From positions 1 to 27,029 of IMG/VR virus record IMGVR_UViG_3300007072_000035: 27,029 nucleotides of DNA. One strand, written 5' to 3'. Positions 3,553-20,205 of the stretch are shown here, in pieces. The position numbers and the translations under genes are program-made. How positions within the stretch are numbered: the first letter of the stretch is position 1; each line of letters starts with the position of its first letter. The stretch comes from a virus. The notes under the pieces were generated by a model. The model searched no databases. It saw only the letters and a list, made by a program, of their open reading frames with translations, and was not told the DNA's origin.

Positions 3553-3572
3553 CCGATAAGAAGGGTTATAGA
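3553..3572 (+). promoter_or_regulatory. Degenerate copy of the CCGATAA-N6-TTATCGG palindrome
   Basis: The sequence is CCGATAA, six bases, then TTATAGA. The left half is perfect and the right half departs at two positions from the consensus seen at six other sites. It lies 20 bp upstream of the -35 box at 3593, a location like that of the perfect copy at 11565 relative to its own promoter. Confidence 0.4.
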
Positions 3573-3592: not shown

Positions 3593-3621
3593 TTGCAAAG
3601 AACGGTAAGTTATGCTATGAT
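3593..3621 (+). promoter_or_regulatory. Sigma-70-type late promoter (extended -10)
   Basis: TTGCAA at 3593-3598 and TATGAT at 3616-3621 are separated by 17 bp, and TGC directly before the -10 gives an extended -10 element. Transcription would start near 3628, only about ten bases before the terminator stem at 3637. The downstream genes are lysis and packaging genes, so it is read as the main late promoter. Confidence 0.65.
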
Positions 3622-3636
3622 AAAGGCGCGGGCCGA

Positions 3637-3673
3637 GCAGACTTGGGTTGTCCCTGAGTCTGCTTGTTTTTTT
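3637..3673 (+). terminator. Intrinsic terminator directly after the late promoter
   Basis: The arms GCAGACT (3637-3643) and AGTCTGC (3657-3663), with an inner GGG-TTGT-CCC, are followed by TTGTTTTTTT. It could end early transcription coming from the left, or stop the late promoter's own transcript after about 45 nt unless antitermination occurs. Confidence 0.8.
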
Positions 3674-3779: not shown

Positions 3780-4157
3780 ATGAACGAGTTCACACCTGAG
3801 GTACTGAGCGCGATTGCGGGGGCGATCCTTTCATTGCTATTCAGTTACATCCCCAAACTCAACACCTGGTTCGCCAAACAGTTGGAAGAGACCAAGAAGC
3901 TGCTGATGCTGGCACTGCTGGCGGTTGTCGCAGGTGGCATCTTCGGTCTGAGCTGCACACCGTACGGGGAGATGCTGAAGATCCCGCTGACATGCGACAA
4001 GGCGGGGGCATTCGAGATGATCAAGATTCTGGTCTTTGCCATCATGGGCAACCAGGGCGTTTATAGCCTGACGGTGCAGACCGGCGCAGTAAAAGCAGCC
4101 AAAGCGCAAGCCAAAGCGGCAGCCTGGGCAGCTTCGATCAAATCACCGGCTGACTGA
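3780..4157 (+). CDS. Holin-like membrane protein
   Basis: The ATG at 3780 follows a clear GGAGG (GACAGGAGGTTTGACG). The 125-residue product has a hydrophobic N-terminal helix (about 9-26, LSAIAGAILSLLFSYIP), an amphipathic charged stretch (NTWFAKQLEETKK), and a second helix (about 41-59, LLMLALLAVVAGGIFGLS). A weaker hydrophobic segment (IKILVFAIMGNQGVYSL) and an Ala/Lys-rich tail follow. Size, two to three membrane spans and position at the head of the late operon, before another small membrane gene and close to an endolysin, fit a holin that permeabilises the inner membrane. There is no sequence signature unique to a holin family that I can name, so this is a context call. Confidence 0.6.
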   Translation: MNEFTPEVLSAIAGAILSLLFSYIPKLNTWFAKQLEETKKLLMLALLAVVAGGIFGLSCTPYGEMLKIPLTCDKAGAFEMIKILVFAIMGNQGVYSLTVQTGAVKAAKAQAKAAAWAASIKSPAD

Positions 4158-4587: not shown

Positions 4588-5312
4588 CGGCTGATAAGCT
4601 GGATTATCGGAACATGATTACAGAGGGAGATCAAGTTGACGATATCGCCAGCCAGGAAGCAGCCCAGTCGCTGGACATCATAGAGCACCTGGAGCGGTTC
4701 GAAAAGCAGGAGGAGAATGAAGATGGCGCATTCCCGGCGTCGATTTTAACACCGGGACAGGTGGAAAGCCGCCACGCGTACGCCCGGCTGACGGCGATCA
4801 ATCGCGAGTATCCGGGCAAAATCCCGTGGTGGGAGGCATATGAGTTACTGCGCGAGGCAGGCTGGACCTGGCGCAAGGCATGTTTCATCGCCTGGAGCGT
4901 GCTACCGCTGAACAAACGCTGGCCGCGTACGATCGAGGAACTGGCGACGGGAGTGCTGGGTTTGCACTCTGCCAGGGCGATCCGCATGTGGCGGCAGAAA
5001 GACCCGAAAATAGACCTGGCAATCGAAAAAATGCGCATGATGACGCTGGGCGACCGCCTGGCGGACGTGCTCGACGCCTGGGTGACGGTCGCCAGCACTC
5101 CTGACCCGGCGGCGCACCGCGACCGCATAACCTATCTTGAGTGGTCTGGCATCTACAAACCCAGGTCGGCGCTGGAGGTGATGGGAGAGGGCGGCGGACC
5201 GGTGCGCACGAAGAAAGAAAGCGAGTTCGAGGATCTGAGCGATGACGATCTCGAGCGACTCATCAGCAATCTCAAGGCAGCAACTGGAATCGCTGGCATC
5301 GGCGCTGCTTGA
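4584..5312 (+). CDS. Terminase small subunit
   Basis: The gene lies directly before the terminase large subunit and overlaps its start. The 242-residue product has an acidic N-terminus, a helical DNA-binding-like core (WWEAYELLREAGWTWRKACFIAWSVLP, then a second HTH-like part around RTIEELATGVLGLHSARAIRMWRQKDP), and the acidic C-terminal end LSDDDLERLI that is frequent in small terminases. TerS recognises the packaging site and regulates TerL. The ATG at 4584 overlaps the previous stop. A later in-frame ATG at 4614 would place the palindrome 4591-4610 outside the coding region, as at most other copies, so the start is uncertain. Confidence 0.7.
   Translation: MTADKLDYRNMITEGDQVDDIASQEAAQSLDIIEHLERFEKQEENEDGAFPASILTPGQVESRHAYARLTAINREYPGKIPWWEAYELLREAGWTWRKACFIAWSVLPLNKRWPRTIEELATGVLGLHSARAIRMWRQKDPKIDLAIEKMRMMTLGDRLADVLDAWVTVASTPDPAAHRDRITYLEWSGIYKPRSALEVMGEGGGPVRTKKESEFEDLSDDDLERLISNLKAATGIAGIGAA
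4591..4610 (+). promoter_or_regulatory. CCGATAA-N6-TTATCGG palindrome, copy near the TerS start
   Basis: CTGATAA, GCTGGA, TTATCGG. There is one change from the consensus (C to T at position 2, which keeps a G-U pair if folded as RNA). It overlaps the first codons of TerS, or sits just before them if translation begins at 4614. Confidence 0.65.
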
Positions 5313-11530: not shown

Positions 11531-11546
11531 TGTTTGCGCGCAAACA
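11531..11546 (+). promoter_or_regulatory. parS-like palindrome, second copy
   Basis: This is an exact copy of the 16-bp TGTTTGCGCGCAAACA. It begins at the base after a stop codon and is followed by CATCGGCGGTTT. Its centre lies exactly 36 bp from the centre of the CCGATAA-type palindrome at 11565, the same spacing as at 20190. Confidence 0.7.
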
Positions 11547-11564: not shown

Positions 11565-11584
11565 CCGATAATTGGCATTATCGG
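11565..11584 (+). promoter_or_regulatory. CCGATAA-N6-TTATCGG palindrome, copy before the second promoter
   Basis: CCGATAAT-TGGC-ATTATCGG is a perfect palindrome with 8-bp arms. It ends 12 bp before the -35 box at 11597, so its centre is near -57, a position often used by activators; roadblock or repression is equally possible. Confidence 0.8.
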
Positions 11585-11596
11585 TACAAACTTTGG

Positions 11597-11625
11597 TTGA
11601 CTTGTAAGAAAATCTGTGCTATTAT
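11597..11625 (+). promoter_or_regulatory. Strong sigma-70-type promoter (extended -10)
   Basis: TTGACT (11597-11602) and TATTAT (11620-11625) are separated by exactly 17 bp, with TGC before the -10. It drives a leader of about 145 nt that ends in a terminator before the capsid polyprotein gene. Confidence 0.75.
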
Positions 11626-11631
11626 CCGGTT

Positions 11632-11778
11632 GACAACGGGGGCTGAAAGGCTCCCAATCAAGGGGGGCGCATCTCCGCTTTGAAAGCAAAGCGGAAAAGA
11701 GCGCCGGTTTATACGGAACGCTGTGACCAGCCCATCAGGGCGCACACGACCGACAGGTCCTGTGCGCCTTTTTGTTTT
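11632..11778 (+). ncRNA. Structured leader RNA between promoter and capsid gene
   Basis: This 274-bp gene-free interval (11531-11804) holds the palindromes and promoter above and then this leader. From the predicted start it folds as a small hairpin (GGGGC with GCTCC around 11640-11654), a long stem (GGCGC 11666-11670 with GCGCC 11701-11705, enclosing CCGCTTTG with CAAAGCGG) and the terminator at 11739. It may be a free small RNA or an antitermination or attenuation leader for the capsid gene 27 bp further on. No known riboswitch class is recognised. Confidence 0.5.
11739..11778 (+). terminator. Intrinsic terminator upstream of the capsid polyprotein gene
   Basis: GGCGCACA (11739-11746) pairs with TGTGCGCC (11761-11768), with an inner GACC-GACA-GGTC, and is followed by TTTTTGTTTT. 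It lies after the promoter at 11597 and only 27 bp before the ATG at 11805. Confidence 0.85.
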
Positions 11779-11804
11779 GGCGGGCAGGGTTATGGGAGGT
11801 GCTT

Positions 11805-14666
11805 ATGAACCATCGTGGAATCAGGCTTCGGGAAGCCGAGGAGCTTTCGCCGGAGAAGAAGGCGCAGAAGGAACGGGAACGGAAGTACGGGATCGGGATC
11901 AAACCCGGCGGGCACGTGACCAAGCCGGCAGAGTATGCCGATGTGCCCGAGGACATGTTTGCCGATCCGGTGAACTTCCGCTACCCGCTATCCCCCCCCT
12001 CGCGGGCGATCAACGCCATCACGCGCTACAACGACACCAGCAACAGGGTCGCCGGTGGCTATACCGATGCGGAATGGGCGCGGATTGGACAGCGCATCGC
12101 CAAAGCGGTGCAGGGCAAGGTGCTGCGCGATGGGAAGGTGGTGGATAAAGAGCAGGAGGCGACCATCGCACGTCGGGGATTCGAGGCGATGAATGGCTCG
12201 CTGGACGACTACATCAGCAAGATCCGCGACGCCTTCGACAGCCAGTTCGCCAGGCTGCCGAACGGCGAGTACAAAGGCGGCTGCTGGGTGACCGACACCT
12301 ATGAGGATCACATCATCGCCAGGTTCAATGATGAGTACTACCAGATCCCCTACACGATCGAGGATGGAAACGTTATCTTCGCCGGGCGGGCGGAGTGGAC
12401 GAAGGTGAAGCGTGAGACGCGCTATGTTCCGGTGACCGAAAGCGTGCGCCTGGTGGCGGCGAAGAAAGCCAGGGGAGACGAGCCGGAGGGCCGCGAGTGG
12501 GAGGTGGTGATCATCGGTCCAGAGACGGATTCTGACCTGGTGATCGATGGCGAGATCGCCTACATCCGCTCGAAGAACGGGCGACTATATAAGGTGTCTG
12601 CCCTAGAGGAGAGCGTCCCGTTGTGGGAAGGGGTGAAGGTTTATGACAATCACTTGACCGATGCTGAGCTGGAATCCAGGCAAGGGATGAGGTCTGTAGT
12701 GCATGAATGGGTGGGAGTGATCGTCTCCCCTGCCTGGGATTCTGCCAGGAAGGCGGTAACCGGCGTGCTGAAGGTCGTGGATGACAACCTGCGCATGAAG
12801 TTGCTCAATGCGGCTTCGGCGGGGGTGTTGGACAAGATCGGGCTGAGCATCGACGCGCTGGGCGAGGGAAAGGAAACCGTTGTGGCGGGCAGTCCTACCA
12901 GTGTCGTTGAACGAATCAGCCAGGCGTTGAGTGTGGATGTGGTAGCCGATCCCGCGGCAGGCGGGCGGCTTGCCAGGATGATCGCGGGGCTAGCCCCTCT
13001 GGGCAACCCGCAGAGACAACAAACAATGGAGGTAGAGATGGACCCAGAAGAACTGAAGAAACTCATAGCGGAAGCCGTCTCTGCGGCGCTGGGCGGTATC
13101 GAGGATAAGATCAAGACCATCGAGAGCCGCCTGCCTGGAGAGGCGGAAGAAGAACCGGAACCGGAGAAGGTCCCGGAGACGGTGCAGAAGCAGCTCGAGG
13201 CGCAGCAGAAGAAGCTGGCGGAGCTCGAGGAGCGCGCCCGCATCAGCGAATGTGCCCATATCCTGGGTGTCAAATTGGCGGAATCCGGTTTGCCGGAGAG
13301 CTACCGTGAACTGATCGCCAGGCAGTTCCGGGGCAGGATTTTCAAGGTCGAGGAACTCGATACGGCGATCAGGGAGCATCGCGAGGCGCTGACCAAAATC
13401 AGCGAGAGCGGCAAGATCATTCTGCCCGATGGCGGGCGGATCAACATCTCGCCGCTGACCGAGTGGGATCGTTACGAGCTGGCATTCCTGCGCCTGGTAG
13501 CCGGGGCGACGCGCTTCAACGAGCTGGCGACGCCGGACAACGCGCGCTATCACGGTTTCACCGCCTTGCAGCGCTTCATCGAAGCCGGACGCCCGGCGCT
13601 GCCGTCGGTGCGGCGACTCTCGGAATGGTACTACCAGTTCACCGAGGACTATGACGGGCTGGGTGTGATGCGCAACCGGCGCTTCCTCGAGGCGCAGGGC
13701 AACACCACCAACCTTGCAAGCATCGTCAAGAACACGGTCAACCTGCTGCTGGCCGCGGATTACTCAGTGCGCGAGCAGTGGTGGGCGCCGATCGTGCGTC
13801 AGGAGGACGTTGACACGCTCGACCAGGCGACTCTGGTGCGGGTGTACGGTCTTTCCAATCTGTCAGTGATCTCCGAGGGCGCAGCTTACGAAGAGGCAGC
13901 CTGGGCAGATGAGGAAGAGACTGCCAGCTACGCCAAGCGCGGTCAGTATGTGGCGATCACGCTGGAGACCTTCCTGCTGGACAAGCTCAACAGAATCCGC
14001 ACTTTGCCAACGCGCCTGAGCAATGCCTGGTACAACACGGTCTCGGCGCTGGTCAGCAGCGTGTTCACGGTCAACAGCGCGACCGGTCCGGTGCTTGGTG
14101 ATGGAGGGGCACTGTTCAACAGCACGGCGGTAACCACGGCGGGCGGGCATGCCAACCTGGGCACCTCGGCGCTCACCTACGCCACCTTCGTTGCGGCACG
14201 AACGGCGATGATGAAGCAGACCGATCAGCCTCTCGGCGGCGGGCGGGCGCTGGCGATGGCAAACAAGCCGAAATACTTGCTGGTGCCTGTCGATTTGCTG
14301 GCGACTGCCGAGCAGATCCGCAACTCAGAGCTCGTCCCGAGCCAGAGCGCAGCCACCAGCGGCATGGAGTTGCAGACGATCAACTCGGTGCGCGGGCAGT
14401 TCGAAATCGTGGTGGTGCCAGACTGGACCGATACCAACAACTGGGCAGCAGTGGCAGACCCGGAGGTGATGCCGGCGATCTGGCTGATCTGGTTGCGTGG
14501 ACGACGTACACCGGAAATCTTTTCCGCAGAGGACGAGCGCGCCGGGGCGATGTTCACCAATGACGAGCTGCGCTTCAAGGTGCGCCAGTTTGGTTTCCGC
14601 TTCAGCTCGACCTACGACTGCGCGCCGGTGAGTGACTTCCGACCGCTGTATAAGGCGAACGTCTGA
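11805..14666 (+). CDS. Prohead protease, scaffold and major capsid fusion protein
   Basis: The ATG at 11805 has GGGAGGT just upstream; a TTG at 11772 lies inside the terminator and is rejected. In the 953-residue product, residues 160-200 resemble a small phage domain often fused to proteases (YYQIPYTIEDGNVIF). Residues 270-355 fit a prohead protease, with His283 in VYDNH and Ser348 in GLSIDA as candidate catalytic residues. Residues 412-490 are acidic coiled coil (scaffold-like). Residues 490-953 are a major capsid protein of the Mu gpT-like kind (ALAMANKPKYLLVPVDLLATAEQI, TNDELRFKVRQFGF). The protease would cut the scaffold and mature the shell. An internal Shine-Dalgarno and ATG at 13038 could make scaffold-capsid alone. 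These roles are usually split over two or three genes. Confidence 0.8.
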   Translation: MNHRGIRLREAEELSPEKKAQKERERKYGIGIKPGGHVTKPAEYADVPEDMFADPVNFRYPLSPPSRAINAITRYNDTSNRVAGGYTDAEWARIGQRIAKAVQGKVLRDGKVVDKEQEATIARRGFEAMNGSLDDYISKIRDAFDSQFARLPNGEYKGGCWVTDTYEDHIIARFNDEYYQIPYTIEDGNVIFAGRAEWTKVKRETRYVPVTESVRLVAAKKARGDEPEGREWEVVIIGPETDSDLVIDGEIAYIRSKNGRLYKVSALEESVPLWEGVKVYDNHLTDAELESRQGMRSVVHEWVGVIVSPAWDSARKAVTGVLKVVDDNLRMKLLNAASAGVLDKIGLSIDALGEGKETVVAGSPTSVVERISQALSVDVVADPAAGGRLARMIAGLAPLGNPQRQQTMEVEMDPEELKKLIAEAVSAALGGIEDKIKTIESRLPGEAEEEPEPEKVPETVQKQLEAQQKKLAELEERARISECAHILGVKLAESGLPESYRELIARQFRGRIFKVEELDTAIREHREALTKISESGKIILPDGGRINISPLTEWDRYELAFLRLVAGATRFNELATPDNARYHGFTALQRFIEAGRPALPSVRRLSEWYYQFTEDYDGLGVMRNRRFLEAQGNTTNLASIVKNTVNLLLAADYSVREQWWAPIVRQEDVDTLDQATLVRVYGLSNLSVISEGAAYEEAAWADEEETASYAKRGQYVAITLETFLLDKLNRIRTLPTRLSNAWYNTVSALVSSVFTVNSATGPVLGDGGALFNSTAVTTAGGHANLGTSALTYATFVAARTAMMKQTDQPLGGGRALAMANKPKYLLVPVDLLATAEQIRNSELVPSQSAATSGMELQTINSVRGQFEIVVVPDWTDTNNWAAVADPEVMPAIWLIWLRGRRTPEIFSAEDERAGAMFTNDELRFKVRQFGFRFSSTYDCAPVSDFRPLYKANV
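13028..13040 (+). promoter_or_regulatory. Internal ribosome binding site and in-frame ATG (scaffold-capsid start)
   Basis: GGAGG at 13028-13032 stands five bases before an in-frame ATG at 13038, exactly where the protease region ends and the acidic scaffold-like coiled coil begins (MDPEELKKL). Initiation here would give a 542-residue scaffold-capsid product. A second ATG at 13026 overlaps the Shine-Dalgarno. Confidence 0.6.
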
Positions 14667-20189: not shown

Positions 20190-20205
20190 TGTTTGCGCGC
20201 AAACA
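20190..20205 (+). promoter_or_regulatory. parS-like palindrome, third copy
   Basis: TGTTTGCGCGCAAACA is an exact copy, again starting at the base after a TAG stop. The 26 bases from its start are identical to the copy at 11531, and it lies 36 bp centre to centre from the palindrome at 20224. Confidence 0.7.

Follow-up and report, generated by a model that had tools for sequence, protein, structure and literature searches.

A candidate transcription attenuator in front of the capsid operon of a likely Chloroflexota phage

Why would a phage place a promoter, a structured leader and an intrinsic terminator directly in front of the gene for its capsid? The question is raised by a locus in the window examined here, which is the whole 27,029-nt stretch of viral DNA (positions 1 to 27,029 of IMG/VR record IMGVR_UViG_3300007072_000035). 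A first-pass annotation had described a near-consensus promoter with a TGC-extended -10 element, a leader of about 145 nt with three stem-loops, a strong terminator just before the capsid fusion gene, a CCGATAA-type site upstream and a region near position 3593 built on the same plan. All of these features were recovered (Table 1). Two functions had been offered for them, namely a small regulatory RNA and an attenuator that gates capsid production.

Table 1. Coordinates of predicted features of the capsid leader, the second module and the associated palindromes in the window.
Feature	Position	Strand	Basis or detail
Palindrome TGTTTGCGCGCAAACA, possible operator	11531..11546		16 bp; 50 bp upstream of -35
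Palindrome CCGATAA-N6-TTATCGG, possible operator just 5' of promoter	11565..11584		perfect, 20 bp
Sigma70-type promoter TTGACT-N17-TATTAT, extended -10 (TGC)	11597..11625	+	consensus match; 20/36 capsid loci with promoter at same place
Structured leader, predicted terminated RNA of ~145 nt	about 11632..11776	+	folding z = -6.0; both ends predicted
Leader stem-loop 1	11638..11655	+	folding
Leader stem-loop 2	11666..11705	+	folding
Candidate antiterminator hairpin, exclusive with terminator	11714..11752	+	minimum-energy fold of RNA ending before terminator 3' arm
Intrinsic terminator	11737..11778	+	hairpin 11737-11770 and U-rich tract TTTTTGTTTT at 11769-11778
Ribosome binding site GGGAGG	11794..11799	+	sequence
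Fusion gene for head protease and major capsid protein, putatively gated	11805..14666	+	PHROG 29592, 133, 4523; Pfam Phage_capsid_4
Imperfect palindrome copy upstream of second module	3553..3572		2 mismatches versus CCGATAA-N6-TTATCGG
Second module, same plan, before holin-like gene (3780-4157)	3593..3666	+	promoter 3593-3621, terminator 3634-3666

Taken alone, the consensus match of the capsid promoter is not beyond chance, since seven promoter-like sites were found in the window where 6.4 are expected, and the case for a regulatory module therefore depends on comparison with relatives. The leader (11632-11778) is predicted to fold with -70.9 kcal/mol, a stability reached by none of 200 shuffled sequences, and it shows no credible nucleotide similarity to known phages. 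Between the promoter and the capsid ribosome binding site lies the intrinsic terminator, whose U tract ends 26 nt upstream of the capsid ATG and 15 nt upstream of the ribosome binding site, leaving no room for a promoter on its 3' side. Every capsid transcript, whichever promoter it starts from, must consequently cross the terminator. The terminator is thus a gate, and we infer that passage through it is regulated. A simple terminator scan of the window did not include this terminator in its list. Attenuation by a leader peptide was considered and rejected, the sole leader open reading frame noted being one that starts with TTG at 11630, at the predicted transcription start, and that has no ribosome binding site.

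Relatives of the capsid gene were taken from IMG/VR and from Chloroflexota MAGs, and their occurrence in the latter makes Chloroflexota the likely host. Most of these relatives have a promoter, a leader and a terminator upstream of the capsid gene, despite differing leader sequences. When 402 kb were scanned without bias on both strands for modules (a promoter matching at least 10/12 positions with a terminator within about 260 nt), nearly all modules lay directly 5' of a capsid gene. Of 36 loci, 27 have a strong terminator directly 5' of the capsid gene, versus 17 of 210 control genes from these loci (p = 4e-17), and the combination of terminator and sigma70 promoter (at least 10/12) is found at 20 of 36 versus 1 of 210 (p = 1e-18), comparisons in which capsid starts were set after inspection, control starts were set mechanically and some loci are related. 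The gate is nonetheless dispensable, as nine of the 36 loci are without a terminator. On the capsid tree, the distribution of the module takes five changes, versus 10.1 for shuffled labels, which is compatible with one gain followed by a few losses. The window falls into a supported set with L156, L054, L002, L044 and L051, all of which have the module, and more distant Chloroflexota prophages with the same capsid fold are mostly without it. Searches for closer relatives with head-morphogenesis and capsid N-terminus queries returned none.

Leader sequences turn over fast among these phages and leader lengths vary, whereas their placement ahead of the gene stays the same. This pattern bears on the possibility that the locus is a small-RNA gene, in which the 145-nt terminated RNA would act in trans and capsid would be made by leaky readthrough. 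Having its own promoter and terminator together with a strong fold would suit such a gene, and a small RNA may exist as the terminated product. As the main function, however, this option of the first-pass annotation is weakened both by a leader that is not conserved in sequence while its position relative to the gene is kept and by a conserved element, described below, that a single phage may repeat in front of several different genes, and we consider it very unlikely. The stem sequences of the terminators are likewise unrelated between phages, only the plan being kept, as might be expected if the terminator were constitutive, partial and unregulated, and served only to adjust how much capsid mRNA is made or to insulate the operon. 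Yet a promoter in front of a terminator of -20 to -40 kcal/mol would be wasteful without relief, and nothing would explain why a conserved element sits at the terminator base. An unregulated terminator thus appears to us an improbable account.

The element in question has the form CGUGAAAC-N3/4-GANACACGG and overlaps the terminator base in many leaders. In close relatives it reads CGTGAAAC-N3/4-GANACACGG, hereafter the CGUG...CACG element, and is held in a fixed register to the terminator base. A scan of IMG/VR for this form returned 25 stretches, the majority lying where a promoter, leader and terminator precede phage genes; genes found 3' of the element include those for scaffold, tape measure, terminase, head protease/capsid and a holin-like protein homologous to the one encoded in the window. 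Two copies per phage are present in L069, L081 and L062/L070 (one contig), and tandem copies occur in L052, L054 and L156. With two stem positions freed in the IMG/VR scan, a terminator followed 12 of 13 U-A matches, some of these 12 being copies of one phage, and none of 15 others. This finding shows that the element is tied to terminators and that its CGUG/CACG stem is kept as a sequence and does not covary, the sole compensatory change having been seen in L017.

A model of the element, R1, scores high only at promoter-leader-terminator sites. The R1 pattern (CGUGAAAC-N-GANACACGG at the terminator base) has no match in the window, which is assigned to the element group by position and phylogeny only. 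Conservation of structure in relatives, which the first-pass annotation had named as the test of its proposal, is therefore found in part: the architecture is kept and close relatives carry the element, but the leader sequence is not conserved and the exact element is absent from the window.

Toward their 5' ends, many leaders start with a YYGAAYA motif that is followed by hairpin 1, whose stems (cut by eye) vary between phages, stay complementary and enclose an ACCAUA-like loop. The automatic leader alignments A3 and A4 were of too low a quality for covariation scoring. In one phage (L184 and L237), related 5' motifs precede both the holin-like and the capsid genes, and homologues of the window's holin-like gene in L060 and L184 are also preceded by related modules. 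Among 350 Chloroflexota genomes, the element model matched in 10; only in G001, which contains the L054 prophage, and G163 (L113) is the element followed by a terminator and by phage-like genes, and the matches in the other genomes are weak. Rfam 15, searched at gathering and at permissive thresholds, gave no credible family for the element or for the window leader, where the matches of low E-value (ctRNA_p42d, 26 of 50 bits; Atu_C9, 20 of 40 bits) both cover the terminator hairpin. A literature search of open-licence papers found none that describes the RNA element.

Several other leader features were observed. L025, L026, L028, L030, L032 and L237 have another class of capsid leader, in which the terminator base carries conserved AAG(U/A)CCCU and UCUAGGGC instead of CGUG/CACG. 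The capsid leader of L013 contains a single copy of the CRISPR-repeat-like sequence GAATCCCGATTGAGGGATTGAAAC at about 4970-5010, and that of L020 seems to lie directly 3' of the end of a tRNA-like sequence (about 1380-1420). A sub-threshold tmRNA match (40.6 bits; gathering 47) is located on the minus strand of L094 at 1697-1784, near the capsid start of the L054 prophage; ARAGORN reported nothing at this site.

In place of the canonical element, the window leader can form a hairpin, CGGAACGCUGUGACCAGCCC-AUCA-GGGCGCACACGACCG, that occupies the 5' arm of the terminator. It appears without any folding constraint when the RNA is folded only up to the point before the terminator 3' arm, and its predicted stability is -13.3 kcal/mol versus -24.6 kcal/mol for the terminator. 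Across 39 leaders, upstream sequences pair with the 5' arms of terminators more than in shuffled sequences (p = 0.004) and more than at other terminator-like sites (p = 0.0026), p values that are optimistic because the leaders are related; for the window leader alone the pairing is not significant (p = 0.37). Statistical support for antiterminator pairing is thus modest. L156, the closest capsid relative, has a canonical element and, 3' of it, a second copy that contains an inner CCC/GGG hairpin; the second terminator of L156 begins AGGGC..ACACG like that of the window. The resemblance of the window leader to this second copy is suggestive, although a local alignment of the two was not significant (38 of 500 shuffles were as good).

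The reading that we favor, with a probability of roughly 0.6, is that the region is a transcription attenuator of the terminator/antiterminator type that gates the capsid operon. By default, a short terminated RNA would be produced. An earlier-forming hairpin, represented by the candidate antiterminator in the window and by CGUG...CACG in close relatives, would overlap the 5' arm of the terminator and would be stabilized late in infection, probably by an RNA-binding factor of the phage or the host. The stabilized hairpin would then block formation of the terminator, and capsid expression would be released. The attenuator proposed in the first-pass annotation is accordingly well supported where architecture is concerned, in that the terminator is obligatory, is kept in the capsid clade and has a competing fold available, while the pairing statistics lend it less.

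A comparable arrangement is known from the RAT-type antiterminators of the BglG/LicT/SacY family, in which a short hairpin overlaps the 5' arm of an intrinsic terminator. The present locus shares that overlap and differs from it in sequence, in that no RNA-binding protein of the BglG/LicT/SacY type was recognized, and in that phage structural genes are controlled.

Nearest in plan are the targets of Q, AlpA and GafZ and the put RNAs, a likeness established here for plan alone. For lambda Q, Pseudomonas aeruginosa AlpA and Caulobacter GafZ, an intrinsic terminator follows the promoter immediately 5' of late, lysis or particle genes, which require readthrough, and the binding site of the protein lies between -35 and -10 (PMC7969949, PMC11150451). 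The put RNA of HK022 is a promoter-proximal phage leader with two hairpins whose processive action reaches distant terminators and does not depend on an adjacent one (PMC9378689). Processive antitermination of either kind is the alternative to be weighed here: RNA polymerase would be modified either by the folded leader or by a factor that loads at the promoter, and the leader terminator would be only the first of several barriers passed. The order of promoter and terminator before late genes, with expression by way of readthrough, is that of Q, AlpA and GafZ targets; many element-bearing leaders have two promoter-proximal stem-loops, as put does, those of the window differing in make-up; and the palindromes upstream of the promoter may also be counted for a processive mechanism. 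These palindromes, however, lie upstream of -35, and no conserved site is evident between -35 and -10 when the spacers of the two window promoters are compared by eye. No homologue of Q, AlpA or GafZ was recognized among the proteins of the window, itself a fragment, with PHROGs and Pfam. Unlike in these systems, moreover, the conserved RNA element abuts the terminator, overlapping it in a fixed register that a processive system does not need, which favors a local antiterminator over a processive one. We therefore judge processive antitermination to be unlikely.

The palindromes suggest a second layer of control, at the level of DNA. CCGATAA-N6-TTATCGG occurs in the window seven times (at 3553, 4591, 7037, 11565, 15963, 20224 and 26175; four copies perfect) where 0.76 copies are expected, and none of 100 shuffles reached seven. 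Along the late region, the copies fall in intergenic stretches or on gene boundaries and could be operators, perhaps stoperator-like, or ParB sites. A different palindrome, TGTTTGCGCGCAAACA, is found three times, at 995 before a ParB-like gene, at 11531 before the capsid promoter and at 20190 before the tape-measure gene, and at the latter two positions it and a CCGATAA palindrome lie together in about 45 bp of nearly identical sequence. The capsid promoter of L052 is preceded by the same site as TGTTTGCGCGCAAACA, TGTTTGCATGCAAACA, and that of L002 by the related CCGCTAA-N6-TTAGCGG. Within the capsid subclade of the window, six of seven members have a palindrome with arms of at least 8 bp no more than 120 bp upstream of the promoter, compared with 6% of random stretches for arms of at least 7 bp. 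In L154 and L155, from the phage of L156, CGCCAAC-N2/3-GTTGGCG is dispersed and one copy lies 50 bp upstream of the capsid promoter; this operator sequence differs from that of the window and occupies the same place. The ParB-like protein of the window (624 aa, HTH_ParB domain, 1044-2918) is possibly a partition protein of a phage-plasmid or a regulatory protein. Operators 5' of the promoter may thus add control of initiation to the attenuator, perhaps through the ParB-like protein or a repressor.

A broader proposal, which we put forward tentatively and at somewhat less than even odds, is that the conserved element is a dedicated antitermination signal through which Chloroflexota phages turn on their capsid, terminase, holin-like and tail operons jointly, the factor that reads it being encoded by the phage or supplied by the host, and that the window has a diverged version. 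The same joint proposal holds that the element consists of CGUGAAAC-N3/4-GANACACGG, frequently joined by YYGAAYA on its 5' side and by the ACCAUA-like-loop hairpin, and is previously undescribed. A terminator that is overridden before capsid, terminase and tail genes would make a simple late switch in phages beyond the well-studied enteric and Gram-positive models, where the timing of late genes has been little explored. The conserved element would also offer a handle on the factor acting in trans and on the annotation of late operons in metagenomic phages.
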